From Tsukamurella sp. M9C (GTDB lineage Bacteria > Actinomycetota > Actinomycetes > Mycobacteriales > Mycobacteriaceae): a DNA stretch of 64,000 nt. The number at the start of each line of letters is the position of its first letter. The stretch's first letter is position 1. The notes under the pieces were generated by a model that was not told the DNA's origin, searched no databases, and saw only the letters and a list, made by a program, of their open reading frames with translations. Shown in pieces: positions 7,296 through 59,483 of this stretch. The stretch covers positions 124,001 to 188,000 of the forward strand of contig NZ_JAIULG010000002.1 in NCBI RefSeq assembly GCF_020169415.1. The letters run 5' to 3'. Position numbers and translations under genes: made by a program.

Positions 7296-8711
7296 ATGAC
7301 CACGACTGAGGCGCCGAAGAAGAAGCGCTGGTACAGATCCCTGTTCGTCCAGGTGTTGATCGGCATCGCAGCCGGAATCGCCACGGGCATCTTCTTCCCG
7401 GGATTCTCGGACCACCTCGCTCCGCTGGGCCAGGGCTTCATCAAGCTCATCAAGATGCTGGTGTCGCCGCTGATCTTCCTCGTGGTGGTGACCGGTATCG
7501 CCAAGGTCGGCAGTATGGCCGCTCTCGGCAAGATCGGTGCGAAGGCCCTGCTGTGGTTCACGGTGTGCACCACGTTCGCGCTCGCGCTGGGGCTCGTGGT
7601 CGGCAACGTCGTCCGCCCGGGCGAGGGCCTGAACATCGACCCGTCGACCCTCGACGCGAGCGCGCTCGATGAGAAGACGCACGGCGAGACCCTGCCGGGC
7701 GGCGTCGACTTCGTCATGAACATCATCCCGACCTCCGTGGTCGACGCCTTCGCGAAGAACAACCTGCTCCAGGTGCTGTTGTTCGCGGTCCTCTTCGGCG
7801 TGGCGCTCGCGGCGATCAGCGAGAAGGTCCAACCCGTCCTGCTCGAGGTCATCGACCAGGCGATGCACGTGATCTTCCGGATCGTCAGCTACATCATGTA
7901 TCTGGCGCCGATCGGTGCGTTCGGCGCGATGGCCTTCACCGTGGGGAACTACGGCGCCGACTCGCTCAAGTCCTTCGGCATGCTGGTGCTCGCGTGCTAC
8001 GGCGCCGCCGTCGTCTTCATCCTCATCCTCGCGGTCGCGGTGCGCCTGATCACCGGTGTGAGTACGTGGAAGTTCCTCAAGTACTGCCGCGAGGAGTTCA
8101 TGCTCGCGCTGGGCACGGGGTCGTCCGAGGCCGTGATGCCGTCGATCATCAAGAAGCTGGACGCGGCGGGCTGCGACCGATCGGTGGTCGGTCTGGTGAT
8201 CCCGACCGGCTACTCGTTCAACCTGGACGGCGCGGCGATCTACCTCTCGCTGTCGATGATGTTCCTCGCGCAGGCGGTCGGCGTGGACCTCAGCGTGGGG
8301 CAGCAGATCACGATCATGGGAATCCTGATCCTCAGTTCCAAGGGGATGGCCGGCGTCCCGGGCTCCGCGTTCGTGGCGTTGTCCGCCACGGCCGCTGCGG
8401 TCGGTGCCTTCCCGGTGGCCGCGGTCGCCCTGCTCCTCGGCGCCGACCGCCTCATGGACTCGATGCGTGTGGCGACCAACCTGCTGGGCAACTGCCTCGC
8501 CACCTTCGTCATCGCGCGGTGGGAGGGCCTGCTCGACACGGAGAAGATGAAGGCGGTCCTGGAGGGCACGCTCGTCGTCGACGATCCCGACGACGTGCGC
8601 GCGCACCCCGGCCACGGCGCGGCCGCGTTCCCGCCGCGTGCCGATGCCGTAGCGCCGGCCGCGGCCGGCGCCGAGACGACCGTCGATGCCGAAGGGGCGA
8701 AGAATGTCTGA
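7296..8711 (+). CDS. dctA: Dicarboxylate:cation symporter of the DAACS (DctA/GltP) family
   Basis: The protein is a secondary transporter for C4-dicarboxylates or acidic amino acids, 471 residues with about eight transmembrane segments and two re-entrant loops. Diagnostic motifs are GTGSSEAVMPSI (serine-rich hairpin) and GYSFNLDGAAIY, and the order of features fits DctA. AAGGGA lies five bases before the ATG at 7296; the ATG at 7290 would overlap that site. It sits within the allantoin operon and its end overlaps the next gene by eight bases. Its physiological substrate here could be a carbon product of the pathway rather than succinate or malate. Confidence 0.82.
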   Translation: MTTTEAPKKKRWYRSLFVQVLIGIAAGIATGIFFPGFSDHLAPLGQGFIKLIKMLVSPLIFLVVVTGIAKVGSMAALGKIGAKALLWFTVCTTFALALGLVVGNVVRPGEGLNIDPSTLDASALDEKTHGETLPGGVDFVMNIIPTSVVDAFAKNNLLQVLLFAVLFGVALAAISEKVQPVLLEVIDQAMHVIFRIVSYIMYLAPIGAFGAMAFTVGNYGADSLKSFGMLVLACYGAAVVFILILAVAVRLITGVSTWKFLKYCREEFMLALGTGSSEAVMPSIIKKLDAAGCDRSVVGLVIPTGYSFNLDGAAIYLSLSMMFLAQAVGVDLSVGQQITIMGILILSSKGMAGVPGSAFVALSATAAAVGAFPVAAVALLLGADRLMDSMRVATNLLGNCLATFVIARWEGLLDTEKMKAVLEGTLVVDDPDDVRAHPGHGAAAFPPRADAVAPAAAGAETTVDAEGAKNV

Positions 8712-13019: not shown

Positions 13020-13825
13020 GCGGGGTCTCCTTGAACGGCTGAGGGGAACCGGACGAGCAGGTCGGCGGCGACGCTCACGGCGATGGTCGCCGGATGTTTG
13101 CCGCCCAGGGCGCTCAGCCCGATGGGGGATTGGATGGTGTCGATGGTCGCGGCGTCGTGTCCGGTGTCGGCGAGCATGGCGCGGAAGCGGGTCCACTTCG
13201 CGGCGGAGCCGATGAGGCCGACGCTGCCCAGGCCCGGCGTCCGCAGGACCTGGTCGCACAGGCTGAAGTCCTCGGCGTGATCGTGGGTCATGATCAGCAC
13301 GTGGCAGCCCGCGGGCAGATCCTCGAGGACCTCCTCGGGCAGCATCGAGTGCCGCAGGTGCACGGTGGCCTCACCGGGCTCCAGGGCGCCGGCGGCCTCG
13401 ATCTGCTCGGGGCGCGAATCCGTCAGGTACAGCTCGACGTCGTGGCGGGACAGGATCCGCGCGAGTTCGAGGCCGACGTGGCCCACCCCGAAGATCGCGA
13501 CCGCCGGTACCACCGGGAGCGGCTCGAACAGGAGAACCACCTCGCCTCCACAGCATTGGCGCCCGTGTTGATTGCGGGCCTTGTCGTTGAGGCGCAACGT
13601 GAGCGTCTCGGGCGTCGCGACCGCGTCCCGGAGCATCTCCCGGGCCCGGTCGATCGCCGTCAGTTCGAGATTGCCGCCGCCGATCGTGCCGAATTCGCCG
13701 TCGGCGGTGGCGATCATCTTGGCGCCCGCCTCGCGCGGAGCGTGCCCGCGGACCCCGATCTGAGTGATCAGGACCGCGGAGACGCGTTGCCGACGCAGGC
13801 GGGCGGCGTCGCCCAGCCAGGTCAT
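13016..13825 (-). CDS. xdhC: XdhC-type molybdenum cofactor chaperone
   Basis: XdhC binds the molybdenum cofactor, promotes its sulfuration and inserts it into xanthine dehydrogenase. The 269-residue protein has the N-terminal XdhC/CoxI domain (CCGGEV near the middle) and the C-terminal Rossmann-like domain with IFGVGHVGLELA and IMTHDHAEDF, ending in GLSALGGKHPATIAVSVAADL. The ATG at 13825 follows the xdhB stop by seven bases, and its own stop overlaps guaD. Longer open frames upstream lie inside xdhB and are not used. Confidence 0.92.
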   Translation of the reverse strand: MTWLGDAARLRRQRVSAVLITQIGVRGHAPREAGAKMIATADGEFGTIGGGNLELTAIDRAREMLRDAVATPETLTLRLNDKARNQHGRQCCGGEVVLLFEPLPVVPAVAIFGVGHVGLELARILSRHDVELYLTDSRPEQIEAAGALEPGEATVHLRHSMLPEEVLEDLPAGCHVLIMTHDHAEDFSLCDQVLRTPGLGSVGLIGSAAKWTRFRAMLADTGHDAATIDTIQSPIGLSALGGKHPATIAVSVAADLLVRFPSAVQGDPA

Positions 13826-51562: not shown

Positions 51563-51711
51563 CGGTCCTCCTGGTTCGACGGTGCGCCGGGTTCGCCCGG
51601 CGGTGACGCGTGTCACAATCGAAGGTAGGAAGCGCGCGGCGGCGGGACGTTCGCCCGCGCGCACGGTTCTTGCGCGCAGGCGCACGCGCCGCGGGAGGGG
51701 AGGAGCAGGGC

Positions 51712-52665
51712 GTGCCGTACACGATCGACGGCCTGGTCACCGGGTCCGAGCGGCGCCTCACCGGTTCCCGCGCGCACGGAGCGTGGCGGGATTGGTGCAG
51801 CGGCGTCCACGGCGAGTTCGACATCTCCTTCGACGGCGACGGCTACCGCGGCGACGTGCTGCGCCAGCGCACCGAGGAGTACCAACTGGTCTCCTGGACC
51901 AGCCAGCGCGAGCACGTGCGCCGCGACGCCCGCGGCATCCGCAACGACCCGCGCGGCCATTACGAGCTGTTCATGCCCCTGAAGGGCGCGCTGCACGTGG
52001 GCGGCGACGTCACCGAGAGCGCGCTGATGCCGGGCGAGATGGTGCTCGTCTCGATCGATTCGCCGTTCGTGCTCGCGCACGAGGACGACGCCTCCGCGCT
52101 GGCCCTGCTCATCCCCGAGCACCGGGTCTCGCGGACGCTCGGCTCGGTCGCCAAGGAGGGCGTGCGGCTGCGCGGCGGCCGCGGGCTGGGCCGGGTCACC
52201 CGGGACCTCGCGGCGGCGCTCATCGACGAGCGGGAGCAGCTCACGGCGGCGGAGTTCGACGCCGCCTGCGACCGCGCCGTGGACCTGTTCTGCCTCGCCG
52301 CCAGCGGGGAGGCCGACGGTGCCGGCGCCGCCGACGACGACGTCCGGGCCGCGGTGCTCCGGCACGTGCGCGCCCACGCCACCGAGCCGGACCTGAGCCT
52401 GGCGGGCGTCGCGGCTGCCGTCGGCTGGTCGGCGCGGCACATCCAGGCGGTGCTCTCCCGCACCGGCGAGACCTTCTCCGACGCCGTGCGCGGCGAGCGG
52501 CTCGATCTGGCCCGGGACCGGCTCACCGATCCGCGGTGGGCCGCTCGCGGGATCGCGTTCATCGCCGACTCGGTGGGTTACGGCTCGGCGAGCGCGTTCA
52601 GCACCGCCTTCAGCCGGCGGTTCGGGCGCTCGCCGCGGGCGCACCGAGCCGGCGCCGCCGACTGA
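51712..52665 (+). CDS. AraC-family transcriptional regulator
   Basis: The 317-residue protein has an N-terminal AraC-binding-like domain (cupin type; RNDPRGHYELFMPLKGALHV) and a C-terminal double helix-turn-helix (about 225-315) with IAFIADSVGYGSASAFSTAFSR. The GTG at 51712 is supported by AGGAG six to seven bases upstream; the frame open to 51610 has no such site. It is divergent from the cyclase/acyl-CoA synthetase genes, its probable targets, and convergent with jetC. Confidence 0.87.
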   Translation: MPYTIDGLVTGSERRLTGSRAHGAWRDWCSGVHGEFDISFDGDGYRGDVLRQRTEEYQLVSWTSQREHVRRDARGIRNDPRGHYELFMPLKGALHVGGDVTESALMPGEMVLVSIDSPFVLAHEDDASALALLIPEHRVSRTLGSVAKEGVRLRGGRGLGRVTRDLAAALIDEREQLTAAEFDAACDRAVDLFCLAASGEADGAGAADDDVRAAVLRHVRAHATEPDLSLAGVAAAVGWSARHIQAVLSRTGETFSDAVRGERLDLARDRLTDPRWAARGIAFIADSVGYGSASAFSTAFSRRFGRSPRAHRAGAAD

Positions 52666-52707: not shown

Positions 52708-55700
52708 TCAGCGCGACGGGGCGAGCTCGCCGAACGTCGCGTACCGGGCGTCCGAGCGGGCACCGTCGGGCGTGACCTGCTTGTCCACCAGGATCACCTG
52801 CCCGATGAAGGGCTCGACGATGCCGACCATGCGGATCGGGGCGGCGATGAGGAGCTGGAAGCCGAACTGCTCGAACGCCCGCAGCGACTGCGCCGAGAAG
52901 CGCTCGTCCGACTTGCTGAAGGCCTCGTCGAGCATGAGCGGCGCGAACGCGGGCTCGTTCGATCCGTCGATGCCGTGGCTGCCCAGGGCGAAGCTCAGGG
53001 CCGCCGCGAGGCAGAACGCGACCAGCTTCTCCTGCTCGCCGCCGGAGTTGGTGGCGGTGTTGCGGTAGGTGACCACCGCGGGGGCGTCCGGCTCGGCCCC
53101 GACGGCGTTCTCCTTGCCGTAGAAGGAGTAGCCGGTGCGCACGTCGAGGACGTTCTCCGTCCAGCGGCGCGACTCGGGGTCGTCGCCCGTCAGGCGCAAC
53201 ACCAGGCCGCGGATGCGCTTGAACTGCGCCGCCATCGCGGCCGGCTCGGCGCGCTTCGCGGCGGGGGCGTCGCGCACCATCTCGTCGACCAGCTTGGCGA
53301 ACTCCGTCGCCTCCGGCGTCGGGCGGGCGGCGTAGGCGATCTGCAGGTAGGTGCCCTCGTTGAACTCCACCCGGCGCAGGCCCGCGTTGACGTCGGCGAT
53401 GCCGCGGGTGATGGCCCGGTGGGTGTCGTCGACCTCCTTGAACAGGTTCGACACCGAGTGGCTGACGTCGGTGGTGATGAGCCGGCGGAACTTCTCCGTG
53501 GCGGCGGCGAGCCCGTGCGCGACGAGGTTCTCGTGCACCGCGACGAAGTCGGGAGCGGAGGCGGCATCGGCGGACAGCTCCGTCGAGGCGTCGGGCCACT
53601 CGCGCAGGAACTGCTCGGCGGTGCGGACGATCCGCGCCTCGGCGGCGTCCCGCTCCGCCGTCGCGGCGGCCTGCTGGCGCTCCAGCTCCGCGCGGAGGTC
53701 GGCGCGGACCTCGCCGAAGGAGTCGAGCGTGAGCCGCCGGGGCTTCGCCTCGTCGGCGGTGAGCAGGTGCCACAGGGCGGTCGCGAGGAAGTCCTCGTCT
53801 TCGCTCGTCAGCTTCGGGGCGCTCTCGGCGTCGATCTTCTCGAACTCGGCGAGCAGATCGTCGAACTCGGTGCCGGCGCGGTTCATCGTCTCGGTGAGGG
53901 CGCCGATGCGGGTCTGCGCCTCGGCCAGCTCGCCGTAGGCGTTGTCGGCCTGCAGCTCCAGCTCCCCGAGGTCCGCGTTGCCGGAGCGGGCGTCGGAGAT
54001 CCGGTCGGCCAGCTCCTCGGCCTCGGCCTTCGCCGCCCAGTGGTCGAGCTCGGCCCACGACGTGTAGCCCAGCACGCCGGCGGCGCTGTCGGTGACGGCC
54101 TTGTGCTCGGCGAGGTCGTCGCGCAGTGTCGCCGACGCCTCGGCGGCCTTGGCGTGCACGGCGGCCAGCTCGTCGCGGCGGCGCTGCAGTGCCTCGCGCT
54201 TGCTGCCGGTGTTGGTGCCCAGCACCCACTGCGAGCGGTCGGCGACGGCGCGGCGGTCGTCCTTGCGGAACCGGCCGCCCGCGTTCTTCACCAGGCCCTC
54301 GGCGGTGACGGCCTGCTCGTGGCGCTCCAGTTCGGCGGGGGAGTCCACGCAGGTGTGCCGCGCGGCGCGCGCGACCGCGCCGGACAGCCATCGTCCGGCC
54401 TCGGTCGACGTGTCCACCGTCAGCTTGGCGGCCAGGGAGCCGGGATCCGGGCGGGTGGGGTCGGCACCGTCGACCACCTGGTACGTGAGCACGCCCTGGA
54501 CGCGGTTGGCGTTGACGTAGTCGGCGACGGCGCGCTGGTGCTCGGCGGGGACCAACAGCGTCGTGGCCAGCGGGCGCAGCACGCGCTCGGCGGCGCCCGC
54601 CCAGGTCGCCTGCTCCGCGGGCCTTACGTCGATCAGCTCCGCCGCGTACGGAAGTTCCTCCGCGGGAACGCCGGTGGCGCGGGCGATCACGTCGCGCTGG
54701 TCCAGCAGCGCGGGCGGCAGCAGCGAGGCGCGGCGGTCGAGCACGGACAGCTCGTCGTCCACGGACTCGACGGCGCGGCGCGCGTCGGACTCGTCCGTGT
54801 ACGCGGAGTGCACGCGCCCCGCGAGGGCCTCGGCGGCCTCGGTCGCGCGGTCGCGGATGCCGGGGACCTGCTCACGCAGCGCGGCGAACTCCTCCGCCGA
54901 CTCGGGCGCGCGCTCGCCGAGCTTCTCCACCGCGGCGGCGAAGCGTTCGTAGGCGCGCTGGCGGGCCTGGGTCTGCAGCTCACGCGACTGGAGCTCGGCC
55001 TCGAGCACGCCGACCTCGCCCTGCTCCTGCCGGAGCCGGTGCAGCAGGTCGTTGTAGCGGATCTTGCGCTCCTCGGCGCGGTCCTCCCAGCGGGCGATCT
55101 GCGCGTCGGTGCCGGCCCGCTCGCCCTCGATCCGGTCCATCTGCTCCTGCAGCAGCCGCAGCTTGTGCCCGCGCAGGTAGGACCGCACGGGTGCGCCGAG
55201 CAGGTCGGCCGCGCGGGTCGTCCCGACGGTGGCGGAGCGGTACTTCTCGTACGCCTCCGGCATCGGCCGCAGCACCTTCTCCTGCGCCTCGGCGCGCGCG
55301 GCGGCCCGGTAGGCCTCGTCGAGCTGGGTGAAGTTCTCCACCAGGCGCTCGGCGCGGGCGTAGGTCTGCGGCCGGTCGAGCATGTACGTCCGGATGAAGG
55401 CGTCGAGGTCGCCGACGTTCTTCATGGCCTTGGCCTTACCGAGCAGCGCGAGCGCGGCCGAGGAGGTGCCGATGCCGACGCGGCGGCGCAGCGCGTCCTG
55501 ATAGGCGGCCTGGGTGTCGAAGGACTCGACGCCGCTGTGCCGGGAGCGCCAGCCGCGGGTGTCGAAGCCGGCGGTCGCCCACTCCTGCAGGTCGAGCAGA
55601 TCGAAGGCGCCCGAATGCAACTGGTACCAGGACTTGAGCGAGGCGCCGTCGGTGCCGCTGCCCGGGAACCACTTCACGGCGACGGCCGTGGTCACGTTGC

Positions 55701-56070
55701 CGGCGCCGTTGTCGTAGGTCGCGGCGACGGCAGACCAGGTGGCCGAATCGCCGCGCAGGTACTGGACCTTGGACTGCTGGTGCTCGTCGTCGTTGACCGA
55801 CCATGCGCCGCGCACGTAGTCCGCCATGGAGCGGGCGGCGCGCTTGGCGCCCTTCGCCGTCATGTCCGCGGAGGCGTTGAAGGACTGGTCGTAGGTGGGC
55901 AGCAGCACCACCGAATGCGCGTCCATCAGCGAGCTCTTGCCCGAGCCCGACGGGCCGGTGAGGATCACGCCCCGCTCGTCGATCGGGAAGTCCTTGTAGC
56001 CGTCGAAGGTGCCCCAGTTCACCACCTGCAGGCGGGTGAGGCGGTACTGGCCGAGATGCTTGCGGGTCAC
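52708..56070 (-). CDS. jetC: Wadjet/MksB-type SMC ATPase (JetC)
   Basis: The 1120-residue protein is the SMC-like motor of a JetABCD/MksBEF condensin. It has an N-terminal head with Walker A GPSGSGKSSLMD (about 39-50), long coiled coils (about 300-480 and 640-900) with a hinge-like region between, and a C-terminal head with the signature NSGGEQEKLV (about 1005) and Walker B LMLDEAFSKSD (about 1045). The GTG overlaps the jetB stop. Wadjet systems extrude and cut plasmid DNA; relatives organise chromosomes. The nuclease subunit gene (jetD/mksG) does not follow: an AraC gene converges 42 bases downstream. Confidence 0.9.
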   Translation of the reverse strand: MTRKHLGQYRLTRLQVVNWGTFDGYKDFPIDERGVILTGPSGSGKSSLMDAHSVVLLPTYDQSFNASADMTAKGAKRAARSMADYVRGAWSVNDDEHQQSKVQYLRGDSATWSAVAATYDNGAGNVTTAVAVKWFPGSGTDGASLKSWYQLHSGAFDLLDLQEWATAGFDTRGWRSRHSGVESFDTQAAYQDALRRRVGIGTSSAALALLGKAKAMKNVGDLDAFIRTYMLDRPQTYARAERLVENFTQLDEAYRAAARAEAQEKVLRPMPEAYEKYRSATVGTTRAADLLGAPVRSYLRGHKLRLLQEQMDRIEGERAGTDAQIARWEDRAEERKIRYNDLLHRLRQEQGEVGVLEAELQSRELQTQARQRAYERFAAAVEKLGERAPESAEEFAALREQVPGIRDRATEAAEALAGRVHSAYTDESDARRAVESVDDELSVLDRRASLLPPALLDQRDVIARATGVPAEELPYAAELIDVRPAEQATWAGAAERVLRPLATTLLVPAEHQRAVADYVNANRVQGVLTYQVVDGADPTRPDPGSLAAKLTVDTSTEAGRWLSGAVARAARHTCVDSPAELERHEQAVTAEGLVKNAGGRFRKDDRRAVADRSQWVLGTNTGSKREALQRRRDELAAVHAKAAEASATLRDDLAEHKAVTDSAAGVLGYTSWAELDHWAAKAEAEELADRISDARSGNADLGELELQADNAYGELAEAQTRIGALTETMNRAGTEFDDLLAEFEKIDAESAPKLTSEDEDFLATALWHLLTADEAKPRRLTLDSFGEVRADLRAELERQQAAATAERDAAEARIVRTAEQFLREWPDASTELSADAASAPDFVAVHENLVAHGLAAATEKFRRLITTDVSHSVSNLFKEVDDTHRAITRGIADVNAGLRRVEFNEGTYLQIAYAARPTPEATEFAKLVDEMVRDAPAAKRAEPAAMAAQFKRIRGLVLRLTGDDPESRRWTENVLDVRTGYSFYGKENAVGAEPDAPAVVTYRNTATNSGGEQEKLVAFCLAAALSFALGSHGIDGSNEPAFAPLMLDEAFSKSDERFSAQSLRAFEQFGFQLLIAAPIRMVGIVEPFIGQVILVDKQVTPDGARSDARYATFGELAPSR

Positions 56071-56855
56071 TGCTGCTCCTCGGTCTCGTTCTCCGGCCGG
56101 CTCTCCGGTTCGACGGTGCCGTCCTCGCCGTCGTCGACGGGGGCCGCCGCCTCGCCCAGGTCCTGATCGGTGCTGGCGAGGTCGCGGTACGCGGCGGTGT
56201 AGAGGTCCACCTGCTCGGGGGTGAGCAGGGACGCGATCACCGAGTGCACGGCCCACCGGTCGCTGGTGCCGACGCGGCGGATCAGGCGGCGGGTCTCCAG
56301 CTGGTTGATCGCGGCGTCGGCCTTCTTCACGAAGCCGGCCTCGTCGGTGTCGCGCGCGGGTCGGAAGGTCAGCAGGTGGTCGATCATCTCCTGCCGCTCC
56401 ACGACCGCCGTCTCGTCCGGGCTGGACAGGTGCTTGAGCCGCAGGAACAGCGCCAGCACCGAGGCGGCGAGCGAGAGGCTCTGCGCGCGCAGCAGATTCC
56501 GCTGCCGCGGGTCGTTCTCGCTGACCTGGCGCGTGAAGGCGTGCTTGGTCTCGCGGTTGATCTCCAGCAGGAGGTTCAGCTCGGAGAGCCTGCTGCGCAG
56601 CAGCGTCTCCTCGGCCTCGATCACGGCCCAGTTCTTCGACCGCGACGAGACGTGCGGCGCCGCGATCAGCTCCTGCAGCGCGTAACAGACCGAGTTCGGC
56701 AGCGCGGAGGTGTCGCCATCGAAGCGGGGCGCGGTGTCGGCGCCGCGCAGCGACTTGATCGCCTCGTCGTCGGCGATGCTGAAGTCGGCCAGGTCGATCT
56801 CGGGGAGCACGTCGTCCGCGATGTCCAGTGCGGCGTCGAGCGATTCGTCGGTCAT
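56067..56855 (-). CDS. jetB: JetB/MksE kite subunit (DUF4194)
   Basis: The 262-residue protein fits the winged-helix kite subunit that binds the kleisin. The core (about 60-215) contains HAFTRQVSENDPRQRNLLRAQ and ASVLALFLRLKHL. The last 45 residues are acidic and probably unstructured. It starts one base after the jetA stop and overlaps the jetC GTG, so the three genes form one tight operon. Confidence 0.85.
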   Translation of the reverse strand: MTDESLDAALDIADDVLPEIDLADFSIADDEAIKSLRGADTAPRFDGDTSALPNSVCYALQELIAAPHVSSRSKNWAVIEAEETLLRSRLSELNLLLEINRETKHAFTRQVSENDPRQRNLLRAQSLSLAASVLALFLRLKHLSSPDETAVVERQEMIDHLLTFRPARDTDEAGFVKKADAAINQLETRRLIRRVGTSDRWAVHSVIASLLTPEQVDLYTAAYRDLASTDQDLGEAAAPVDDGEDGTVEPESRPENETEEQQ

Positions 56856-56856
56856 G

Positions 56857-58362
56857 TCACTCCTGCTCGAACAGCGTGGTGGGCTCGGGCGCGGCCGAGG
56901 CGGGGGTCAGGGGCGGGAGCGCGGCGGCGAAGGCGATGTGCGGCACCGTCATCTCGCGGGGCCCCCGTTTCGTGTGCGCGACGACGGTGACCAGGCGGTC
57001 CTCGTCGACGGTGCCGTACCGCGCGCCGAGCGACCAGACGCCGACGACGTCGCCGGCGCGGGGCGCGTCGATCGCGGCGAGGATCTCGGTGATGTCGGCA
57101 CCGTCGGACGCGCTGACCTGCTGGTTGATGGCGGAGGCGAGTGCGTCCCAGTCGATCGCCTCGCGGCCGACGAGGCGGGCGGGGTCGATGGTGAACTCAC
57201 CGGAGGTCTCGCGCACCTCGGGCGGCAGGGTGACGATGCCGTCGTGGAAGCGCAGGGCGCCGACGGAGCTGGTGTCGACGGCCGACATGGGGACCGCGAG
57301 GCCGGTGTCGCGGCCGGCGGAGACGGTGTCGAAGGCGTCGACGGCCGCGCGCTGCGCCTCGGTGATGCGGGCGCGCAGCGACTGGTACTGCAGGAAGTCG
57401 CCGTCCTTGACGAAGGTGTTGATGCGGCGATACACCTGGCCGCGGATCTCGTCCACGCGCTGGACCTGCATCCACATGCGGTCGAGGAAGCCGGTGAGGG
57501 AGTCTCTGAGGTCGTCCGGCAGCTCGACCTCGTGCACGACGGAGGCGACCGAGGTCTCGAGCTGGCGGCGCAGGCGGTGGTCCGAGAGCAGCGTGTAGAA
57601 GGCGTCGAAGGCCTTGCCCTCGGGCGTGTTCGCCAGCTCGTCGTGGCCGTCGAAGAGGCGCTGCAGCGTCTTCGCGTAGGCCTCGGCTTCCGTGGAGTCG
57701 GAGGCGTCCAGGCCGTGGGTGAGGAGGGCCCGGGTGTGCTCGCGGAGCTTCTCGCCGTAGCCGAGGATGTCGGCCGGCATGCGCTCGGCGAGGGAGCTGA
57801 CGATCTTGAGGTCGTCGACCACCTTGTCGCGGTCGTACTCGGGGATGAGGCCCTGGCGCAGGGCCTCGCGTCGCTGGGTGAGCTCGGCGATCTGCTGGTC
57901 CAGGGCGCGGAGGTGGTCGTCGGGGTCCGCGCTGACGGTGACCGCGACCGCCGACAGGCGGGCCGTGACGAGCTCGAGCGCGGTCTCGGTGGCGACGTTG
58001 CGGTCCAGCGACACCGCCTGCACCTGGCCGAGGGCCGTCGTGGCGCCGCGGGTGAGCTGGATGACCTCGCGGTCGTCTTCGTCGAGGGTGCGGGAGACGA
58101 AGCCGTGCTTGACCCACTGGTCCAGGACGTCCGGACCGGCCGGGACCGGTCGGGCGCGCTCGGTGAAGTGGCTCTGCAGGGACTGCAGGTCGACGGTGAG
58201 CGCGTCGCCCAACTCCTCCGCGTCGACGGGGCCCGTGCCCAGCCGCGCCGCCATCAGTGCCAGGTAGGCGACGGCGTGGGGGGAGCGGAGCAGGCGGAGC
58301 GCGACGTCGTTGTCGGCGTTGTCCGTGAACGCGGCGTACAGCTGCGCGGCCGACTGCGCCAT
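56857..58362 (-). CDS. jetA: JetA/MksF kleisin subunit (DUF3375)
   Basis: The 501-residue protein matches DUF3375, the kleisin of Wadjet and MksBEF complexes. Its order of features is a helical N-terminus (ALRLLRSPHAVAYLALMAARL), a central helical region and a C-terminal beta-rich part (DRLVTVVAHTKRGPREMTVPH). Length agrees with JetA. A strong ribosome site (GGGAGG) lies six bases before the ATG at 58362. First gene of the unit; it is divergent from the GDPD gene across 98 bases. Confidence 0.87.
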   Translation of the reverse strand: MAQSAAQLYAAFTDNADNDVALRLLRSPHAVAYLALMAARLGTGPVDAEELGDALTVDLQSLQSHFTERARPVPAGPDVLDQWVKHGFVSRTLDEDDREVIQLTRGATTALGQVQAVSLDRNVATETALELVTARLSAVAVTVSADPDDHLRALDQQIAELTQRREALRQGLIPEYDRDKVVDDLKIVSSLAERMPADILGYGEKLREHTRALLTHGLDASDSTEAEAYAKTLQRLFDGHDELANTPEGKAFDAFYTLLSDHRLRRQLETSVASVVHEVELPDDLRDSLTGFLDRMWMQVQRVDEIRGQVYRRINTFVKDGDFLQYQSLRARITEAQRAAVDAFDTVSAGRDTGLAVPMSAVDTSSVGALRFHDGIVTLPPEVRETSGEFTIDPARLVGREAIDWDALASAINQQVSASDGADITEILAAIDAPRAGDVVGVWSLGARYGTVDEDRLVTVVAHTKRGPREMTVPHIAFAAALPPLTPASAAPEPTTLFEQE

Positions 58363-58447
58363 CGTGTACCTCCCCTTGCGTATGCGACGGTCCAGTGTAT
58401 CGGGGAGCCCTTCATGTCGCGGACAGGTCGGGTTCACCGTGGCGGCC

Positions 58448-58453
58448 TAGCGT
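58448..58453 (+). promoter_or_regulatory. Candidate leaderless -10 of the GDPD gene
   Basis: TAGCGT ends seven bases before the ATG at 58461. No ribosome site is visible in the gap. Confidence 0.45.
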
Positions 58454-58460
58454 GCGGTTC

Positions 58461-59483
58461 ATGAACCTGCGGCGTCCGACGATCATCGCTCTGTCTCTCG
58501 CGCTGCTGGTCGGGGCGGCTCCGGCCGGCGCGGCGCCGCGGACCGTCGACCTGCAGGCGCACCGGGGCGGGCTCGGCCTGCAGACGGAGTCCACGCTGGA
58601 GGGCTTCTCCGCAGCGATGCGGCTCGGCGTGACCACGCTGGAACTGGACACGCAGGTGACGAAGGACCGGACGGTCGTGATCACGCACGACCGGAAGGTG
58701 GACGCACGCAAGTGCGCGGACACCGCGCCGGCGACGCCCGGCGACCCGCAGTACCCGTACGTCGGCAAGTACGTCCGCGACCTGACCTACGCCCAGGTCC
58801 GGACGATGAACTGCGGATACGAGAAGGTCACCGCCTCGCAGCGCGTGGTGGCGGGAGCCCGCATCCCCGAGTTGCGCGAGCTCTTCGACCTCGTCCGCGC
58901 GCGCCGGTCGCCGGTGCGGATGAACATCGAGACGAAGGTGGAGGCGGGGGCACCGTCGGAGACGGCGCCACGAGGCGAGTTCGTGCGGGCGGTGGCGGGG
59001 GAGATCACGCGCTCCGGCCTCGCCCGGCAGGTCACGATCCAGAGCTTCGACTGGACCGCCCTGCGGGAGATCGGGCCGCTGCTCCCGGGCGTCGGGCTGA
59101 TCGCGCTGACCAACGGCGAGCAGTTCCTGCAGACGGGGAAGCCGGGCGGGTCGCCGTGGCTGGGGCTCGACGTGGACGCCTACGGCGGCGACTGGGTGCG
59201 GGCCGCGAAGGCGACCATCCCCGGACTGACCGCCGTCTCGCCGGTGCAGGGCGATCCGCAGGACGGCGGCGTCGGCGACGCGGACTTCGTGCGCTTCACA
59301 AAGCCGGAGCTGATCCGACGGGCGCACGGCCTGGGCCTGAAGGTCATCCCGTGGACGGTCAACGATCCCGCGACGATGCGGGCGCTGCTGCGGGACGGCG
59401 CGGACGGGCTGATCACCGACTACCCGGACCGCGCCCGTGCGGTGTTCCGCGAGCTGGGGATCGCGCTGCCCGCCTCCTCGTAG
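58461..59483 (+). CDS. Secreted glycerophosphodiester phosphodiesterase
   Basis: The 340-residue protein has a signal peptide (about residues 1-25, ending GAAPAGAAP) and a GDPD domain. The catalytic motif QAHRGG comes near residue 34, with ELDTQVTKDRTVVITHD providing metal ligands and the second His. WTVND and DGLITDYPDRA close the barrel. It hydrolyses glycerophosphodiesters outside the membrane, releasing glycerol-3-phosphate and an alcohol. The ATG gives a normal signal peptide; the longer frame does not. Confidence 0.93.
   Translation: MNLRRPTIIALSLALLVGAAPAGAAPRTVDLQAHRGGLGLQTESTLEGFSAAMRLGVTTLELDTQVTKDRTVVITHDRKVDARKCADTAPATPGDPQYPYVGKYVRDLTYAQVRTMNCGYEKVTASQRVVAGARIPELRELFDLVRARRSPVRMNIETKVEAGAPSETAPRGEFVRAVAGEITRSGLARQVTIQSFDWTALREIGPLLPGVGLIALTNGEQFLQTGKPGGSPWLGLDVDAYGGDWVRAAKATIPGLTAVSPVQGDPQDGGVGDADFVRFTKPELIRRAHGLGLKVIPWTVNDPATMRALLRDGADGLITDYPDRARAVFRELGIALPASS

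Follow-up and report, generated by a model that had tools for sequence, protein, structure and literature searches.

A nuclease-free jetABC (MksBEF-type) operon of the Wadjet type I group in Tsukamurella

The jetABC operon and its surroundings

We report on an operon of three genes on the minus strand in a 64,000-nucleotide stretch of the Tsukamurella sp. M9C genome (hereafter the window). The first gene, jetA/mksF (56857..58362), encodes a kleisin of the DUF3375 family (501 aa), the second, jetB/mksE (56067..56855), a KITE subunit (DUF4194/MksE, 262 aa), and the third, jetC/mksB (52708..56070), an SMC-type ATPase of 1120 aa. Reading of the sequence places the jetA start at the ATG at 58362, preceded by the ribosome-binding site GGGGAGG; jetA and jetB are 1 nt apart, and the GTG start of jetC at 56070 overlaps the jetB stop by 4 nt (GTGA). 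The three reading frames are intact and their translation is coupled. A scan for consensus promoters and terminators found none, which is a weak test in a high-GC actinobacterium.

JetA matches Pfam PF11855 (DUF3375; E=2e-96) and JetA chains in the PDB (E=4e-9), and JetB matches PF13835 (DUF4194; E=2e-30) and PF21980 (MksE; E=2e-6). For JetC, the matches are to PF13555 (AAA_29; E=9e-23), PF13558 (SbcC_Walker_B; E=3e-20) and, over nearly its full length, to JetC chains in the PDB (E=6e-57), together with a weak N-terminal match to PF04310 (MukB; E=4e-5). Its Walker A motif (GPSGSGKS), signature (SGGE) and Walker B motif (LMLDE) lie at residues 39, 1009 and 1045, respectively. The PADLOC models for Wadjet type I gave 1016 bits for JetA1, 273 bits for JetB1 and 1080 bits for JetC1. 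Pfam, PADLOC and the reading of starts and motifs thus agree with the initial annotation, which described an intact, tightly coupled jetABC with Walker and signature motifs. As in Wadjet type I, JetA, JetB and JetC are encoded in a single operon; as in MksBEF, the kleisin, KITE and SMC genes stand together without MksG and the SMC ATPase motifs are present.

The statement that no jetD lies at the locus also held. On the side where jetD would lie, a convergent gene for an AraC-family regulator (51610..52665, plus strand; Pfam HTH_18 and AraC_binding_2) ends 42 bases beyond jetC, and upstream of jetA a divergent gene encodes a glycerophosphodiester phosphodiesterase (GDPD; 58395..59483, plus strand; PF03009, E=1e-35), the listed start of which is mechanically the first start codon, such that the true start may be later. 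Both genes are outside the system. The upstream site, with GDPD and DUF218 genes, is conserved across Tsukamurella, and the GDPD orthologues adjoin jetA. The region downstream of jetC varies: araC, cyclase and AMP-ligase genes are found in the window, in locus L021 and in T. tyrosinosolvens, the only ones where araC adjoins jetC, several congeners lacking it there, while in L018, L019, L020 and L024 jetC is directly followed by a PIG-L-like deacetylase gene (assigned on the resemblance of its first residues to an annotated gene family).

One near-identical copy is deposited on a plasmid. NZ_LR134444.1 (L153; 22,295 bp) is recorded as the circular 'plasmid 2' of T. tyrosinosolvens; it starts within jetA, has the gene order of the window, and its jetC is annotated as two pieces. 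This record is probably a misassembled chromosomal fragment, and since it is the sole plasmid record of this kind we rejected the idea that the operon is mobile or plasmid-borne.

Search for jetD and age of the nuclease-free lineage

The genome that holds the window comprises 4.73 Mb in 110 contigs and is listed as 100% complete. JetD_C (PF09983) had no match in it, and the Corynebacterium glutamicum control was matched; PF11796 (DUF3323) also had no match, which is uninformative because the control genomes gave none either. A 14-row profile of actinobacterial JetD proteins found nothing at E<=1 in 16 Tsukamurella genomes, the window's included, and matched all four positive control genomes with E values from 3e-136 to 6.5e-83, three of these (G043, G018 and G169) having contributed nothing to the profile. 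Across the genus, JetA was present in 16/16 species and JetD_C in 0/16. The JetD nuclease that is part of Wadjet type I is therefore lacking in both operon and genome; the search for jetD that the initial annotation had proposed, with positive controls matched, rules out a copy elsewhere, and its suggestion that JetABC might borrow such a nuclease finds no candidate of the JetD family in this genome or in the 15 other Tsukamurella species. Plasmid restriction by cleavage is not expected without JetD. We also looked for a degraded remnant of jetD or of alkZ (see below) by scanning ten Tsukamurella loci in all six frames with relaxed settings; the best match reached only E=0.57 and this candidate was rejected.

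Among named organisms its nearest relatives are species of Tsukamurella; the JetA of T. ocularis is 97% identical. Among 301 genomes of the family, 130 had a DUF3375 match and 59 a JetD_C match. Approximately 80 loci across the family and the class were scored for JetA, JetB, JetC and an adjacent JetD, and trees were computed for JetA and JetC with a quick method (LG+G4), which gave long-branch warnings. In both trees the window falls in a well-supported clade that is almost devoid of jetD (48 of 49 rows without it for JetA, 45 of 46 for JetC). Subclade I comprises Tsukamurella, the genera g7, g11, g13, g17 and g19, and g95, which belongs to a different family of the class; subclade II comprises g9, g30 and g31. 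Because the trees warn of long branches, the clade of Tsukamurella and its sister genera is more secure than the deep placements, among them that of locus L088 (genome G245). L088 carries the sole jetD within the clade (L088:5307-6701:-), apparently intact with the motifs ENLE and YWGDID, so that the clade is not strictly nuclease-free. This jetD may have been retained or regained; if retained, subclades I and II lost jetD separately.

Taken together, the genus survey and the trees rule out a recent loss of jetD in this strain and indicate that the operon's lineage has long been nuclease-free rather than having arisen by a recent deletion. The comparison with relatives' loci, also proposed earlier, thus placed the operon in a nuclease-free clade that extends across genera in both the JetA and the JetC tree. 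The initial description of a Wadjet system without its fourth gene stands as regards a jetABC without nuclease, and has to be amended in that this is an old condition common to several genera.

Other states of these loci were also seen. Outside the clade, L073/L074, L107/L108 and L109/L110 have an intact jetABC and have lost a jetD that close relatives keep; these losses are apparently more recent and independent. Orphan partial JetD frames occur at G219:C1:2591900-2592268 (L157) and G110:C11:189415-189816 (L156), with no jetA or jetC nearby, and both genomes carry a nuclease-free operon. At L127 (G514) JetA ends at 8038 and JetB starts at 13596, about 5.6 kb apart, and the stretch yielded no JetC; the operon may be interrupted.

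Selection, kleisin divergence and an AlkZ-like neighbour

For the window against eight congeners, dN/dS values (Nei-Gojobori) range between 0.105 and 0.258 for jetA, 0.084 and 0.218 for jetB, and 0.067 and 0.116 for jetC, showing that jetABC is under purifying selection. The jetA frame is uninterrupted in 15 of the 16 Tsukamurella genomes. In the remaining one, Tsukamurella sp. PLM1 (L025, 9890-15681; listed as 83% complete), frameshifts break jetA and jetC, possibly as sequencing errors rather than as pseudogenes. These data bear on the reading that the operon is a decaying Wadjet remnant, now without its effector and heading for loss. Repeated loss of jetD, with at least eight changes of jetD state required by the trees overall, is in keeping with it; however, the open frames, with the sole interrupted copy perhaps a sequencing error, the dN/dS values of jetA, jetB and jetC, each well below 1, and the spread of the nuclease-free clade over many genera contradict decay, which we regard as very improbable.

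The operon coexists with other SMC systems. A canonical Smc is encoded in the same genome (G000:C9:34334-37861), and, elsewhere in the sample, a distinct jetABCD-type operon (L154, L155) is found in G470 and G487 in addition to the nuclease-free one. G066, G275, G101 and G281 also have the nuclease-free operon plus another jetA, which lies about 5-6 kb from a jetD. As these six genomes carry both copies, the jetD-bearing and nuclease-free forms are not alternatives of one locus.

The subunits have diverged unevenly. At columns at least 90% conserved among JetD-bearing rows, JetC has kept 0.91 in subclade I, to which the window belongs, and 0.81 in subclade II; for JetA the corresponding fractions are 0.53 and 0.31. 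In leave-out controls, single JetD-bearing groups kept 0.81-0.98 of the JetA columns and the deepest group 0.59. Unlike the motor, the kleisin has lost residues that are conserved in JetD-bearing systems, among them three arginines replaced in the window (A128, K250 and T334). We considered whether the lost positions mark a docking site for JetD, an idea weakened by the deepest JetD-bearing group at 0.59 and by L088: its kleisin is also without the three arginines and it yet has jetD, so they are not simply a JetD-docking site.

In the genera g7, g11, g13, g17 and g19 the jetD position, immediately downstream of jetC and on its strand, is taken by a gene for an AlkZ-like DNA glycosylase at 10/10 loci (L057, L066-L072, L114 and L115; e.g. 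L114:11700-12818:+). The assignment to PF06224 was confirmed for three loci (best E=4e-77), which rules out that the gene is a divergent jetD. Its start codon lies between -4 and +16 nt from the jetC stop in nine of the ten loci, the nearest listed start in L070 being at -41, and seven of the ten genes have, within the part scanned, a Q-S/A-Q motif, which we take to be the AlkZ catalytic motif. In the literature searched we found no mention of Wadjet and AlkZ together. Tsukamurella lacks an AlkZ-like orthologue: its only homologue, encoded elsewhere, is a paralogue with about 27% identity, and the locus bears no remnant; in the branches g9, g30 and g95 no AlkZ-like gene follows jetC.

This association could mean that JetABC partners a nuclease or DNA-processing enzyme outside the JetD family, in the sister genera perhaps the AlkZ-like glycosylase. 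The constant position and strand of the gene speak for such a partnership. Against it, the five genera share wider synteny and the ten loci are therefore not independent events, AlkZ is a glycosylase and not a nuclease, and the gene is missing from Tsukamurella, remnants included, and from g9, g30 and g95; as an explanation of the operon we find it improbable. A broader and speculative scenario, to which we attach low confidence, is that the lineage dropped plasmid cutting before the genera diverged, that the kleisin and not the motor was remodelled, and that one branch gained the AlkZ-like DNA-repair partner in the jetD slot, giving a genome-maintenance complex.

Proposed function and relation to known systems

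Our data suggest that the product of the operon is probably an MksBEF condensin without nuclease, belonging to the Wadjet I group, which as a second condensin would entrap or extrude DNA without cutting it. A non-cutting complex, as considered in the initial annotation, is the natural reading of a nuclease-free operon and fits the old nuclease-free lineage. In the mechanism we propose, JetC would be the ATPase motor, JetA the kleisin closing the ring and JetB a KITE dimer, and the complex would entrap and extrude loops of chromosomal DNA alongside canonical Smc; it may also act on circular DNA without cleaving. By analogy with characterised relatives, loop extrusion and a chromosomal target would be expected, and we infer a housekeeping role rather than one in defence. 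Retention throughout the genus and purifying selection speak only indirectly for a contribution to chromosome organisation or segregation.

Silencing of viral circles has been proposed for Smc5/6, and a parallel can be drawn to a non-cutting anti-plasmid system in which JetABC loads on and fully extrudes small circular DNA and thereby blocks its replication, expression or partition. Such a role is possible, given that the related MksBEFG of C. glutamicum targets plasmids rather than the chromosome (PMC7083940), and it would accord with the strong matches to the Wadjet I models and with JetABC being regarded as a sensor of circular DNA (PMC10586767). The presence of the operon in every sampled Tsukamurella species and the conserved upstream genes are, however, more core-like than expected of a patchy defence system, and we consider an anti-plasmid function unlikely, preferring the second condensin.

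Wadjet-group complexes have been studied as plasmid destroyers, and the profiles used for finding defence systems match this operon strongly; it may therefore be counted as plasmid immunity. With a genus-wide nuclease-free lineage kept beside Smc, and in some genomes beside a separate copy that has jetD, nature provides a comparison by which to study an SMC motor without its cutter, and the same comparison bears on how defence and chromosome-organising condensins interconvert. A nuclease-free MksB has reportedly been studied in Mycobacterium smegmatis. As nuclease-free Wadjet-group complexes have already been described (PMC7617805, PMC10586767), including several members without MksG/JetD that were checked via structure prediction of the neighbouring proteins (PMC7617805), the Tsukamurella operon adds one more and is not a new kind. 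The parts worth following are the AlkZ association and the uneven divergence of the kleisin.

Compared with Wadjet type I (JetABCD, also MksBEFG or EptABCD), the operon shares subunits A, B and C, gene order, operon coupling and the PADLOC and PDB JetC matches, and differs in that the genome is without JetD/MksG, locally or elsewhere. Within the same bacterial order, the C. glutamicum system has the same subunits A, B and C; unlike the Tsukamurella operon it has the MksG nuclease, its JetD having been matched as our control, and it acts on plasmids only (PMC7083940, PMC10123090). Enterobacterial MukBEF is likewise a Wadjet-group condensin without MksG (PMC7617805), and JetC shows the weak N-terminal match to MukB; however, MukBEF replaces Smc-ScpAB, whereas the Tsukamurella genome retains Smc. 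MksBEF of Pseudomonas aeruginosa is likewise a three-subunit MukBEF-like condensin without nuclease; it is found beside Smc-ScpAB and contributes to chromosome organisation (PMC10586767, PMC7083940). A chromosomal function has been shown for this system only, and it is of a different lineage, the operon in the window matching the type I JetABC models.
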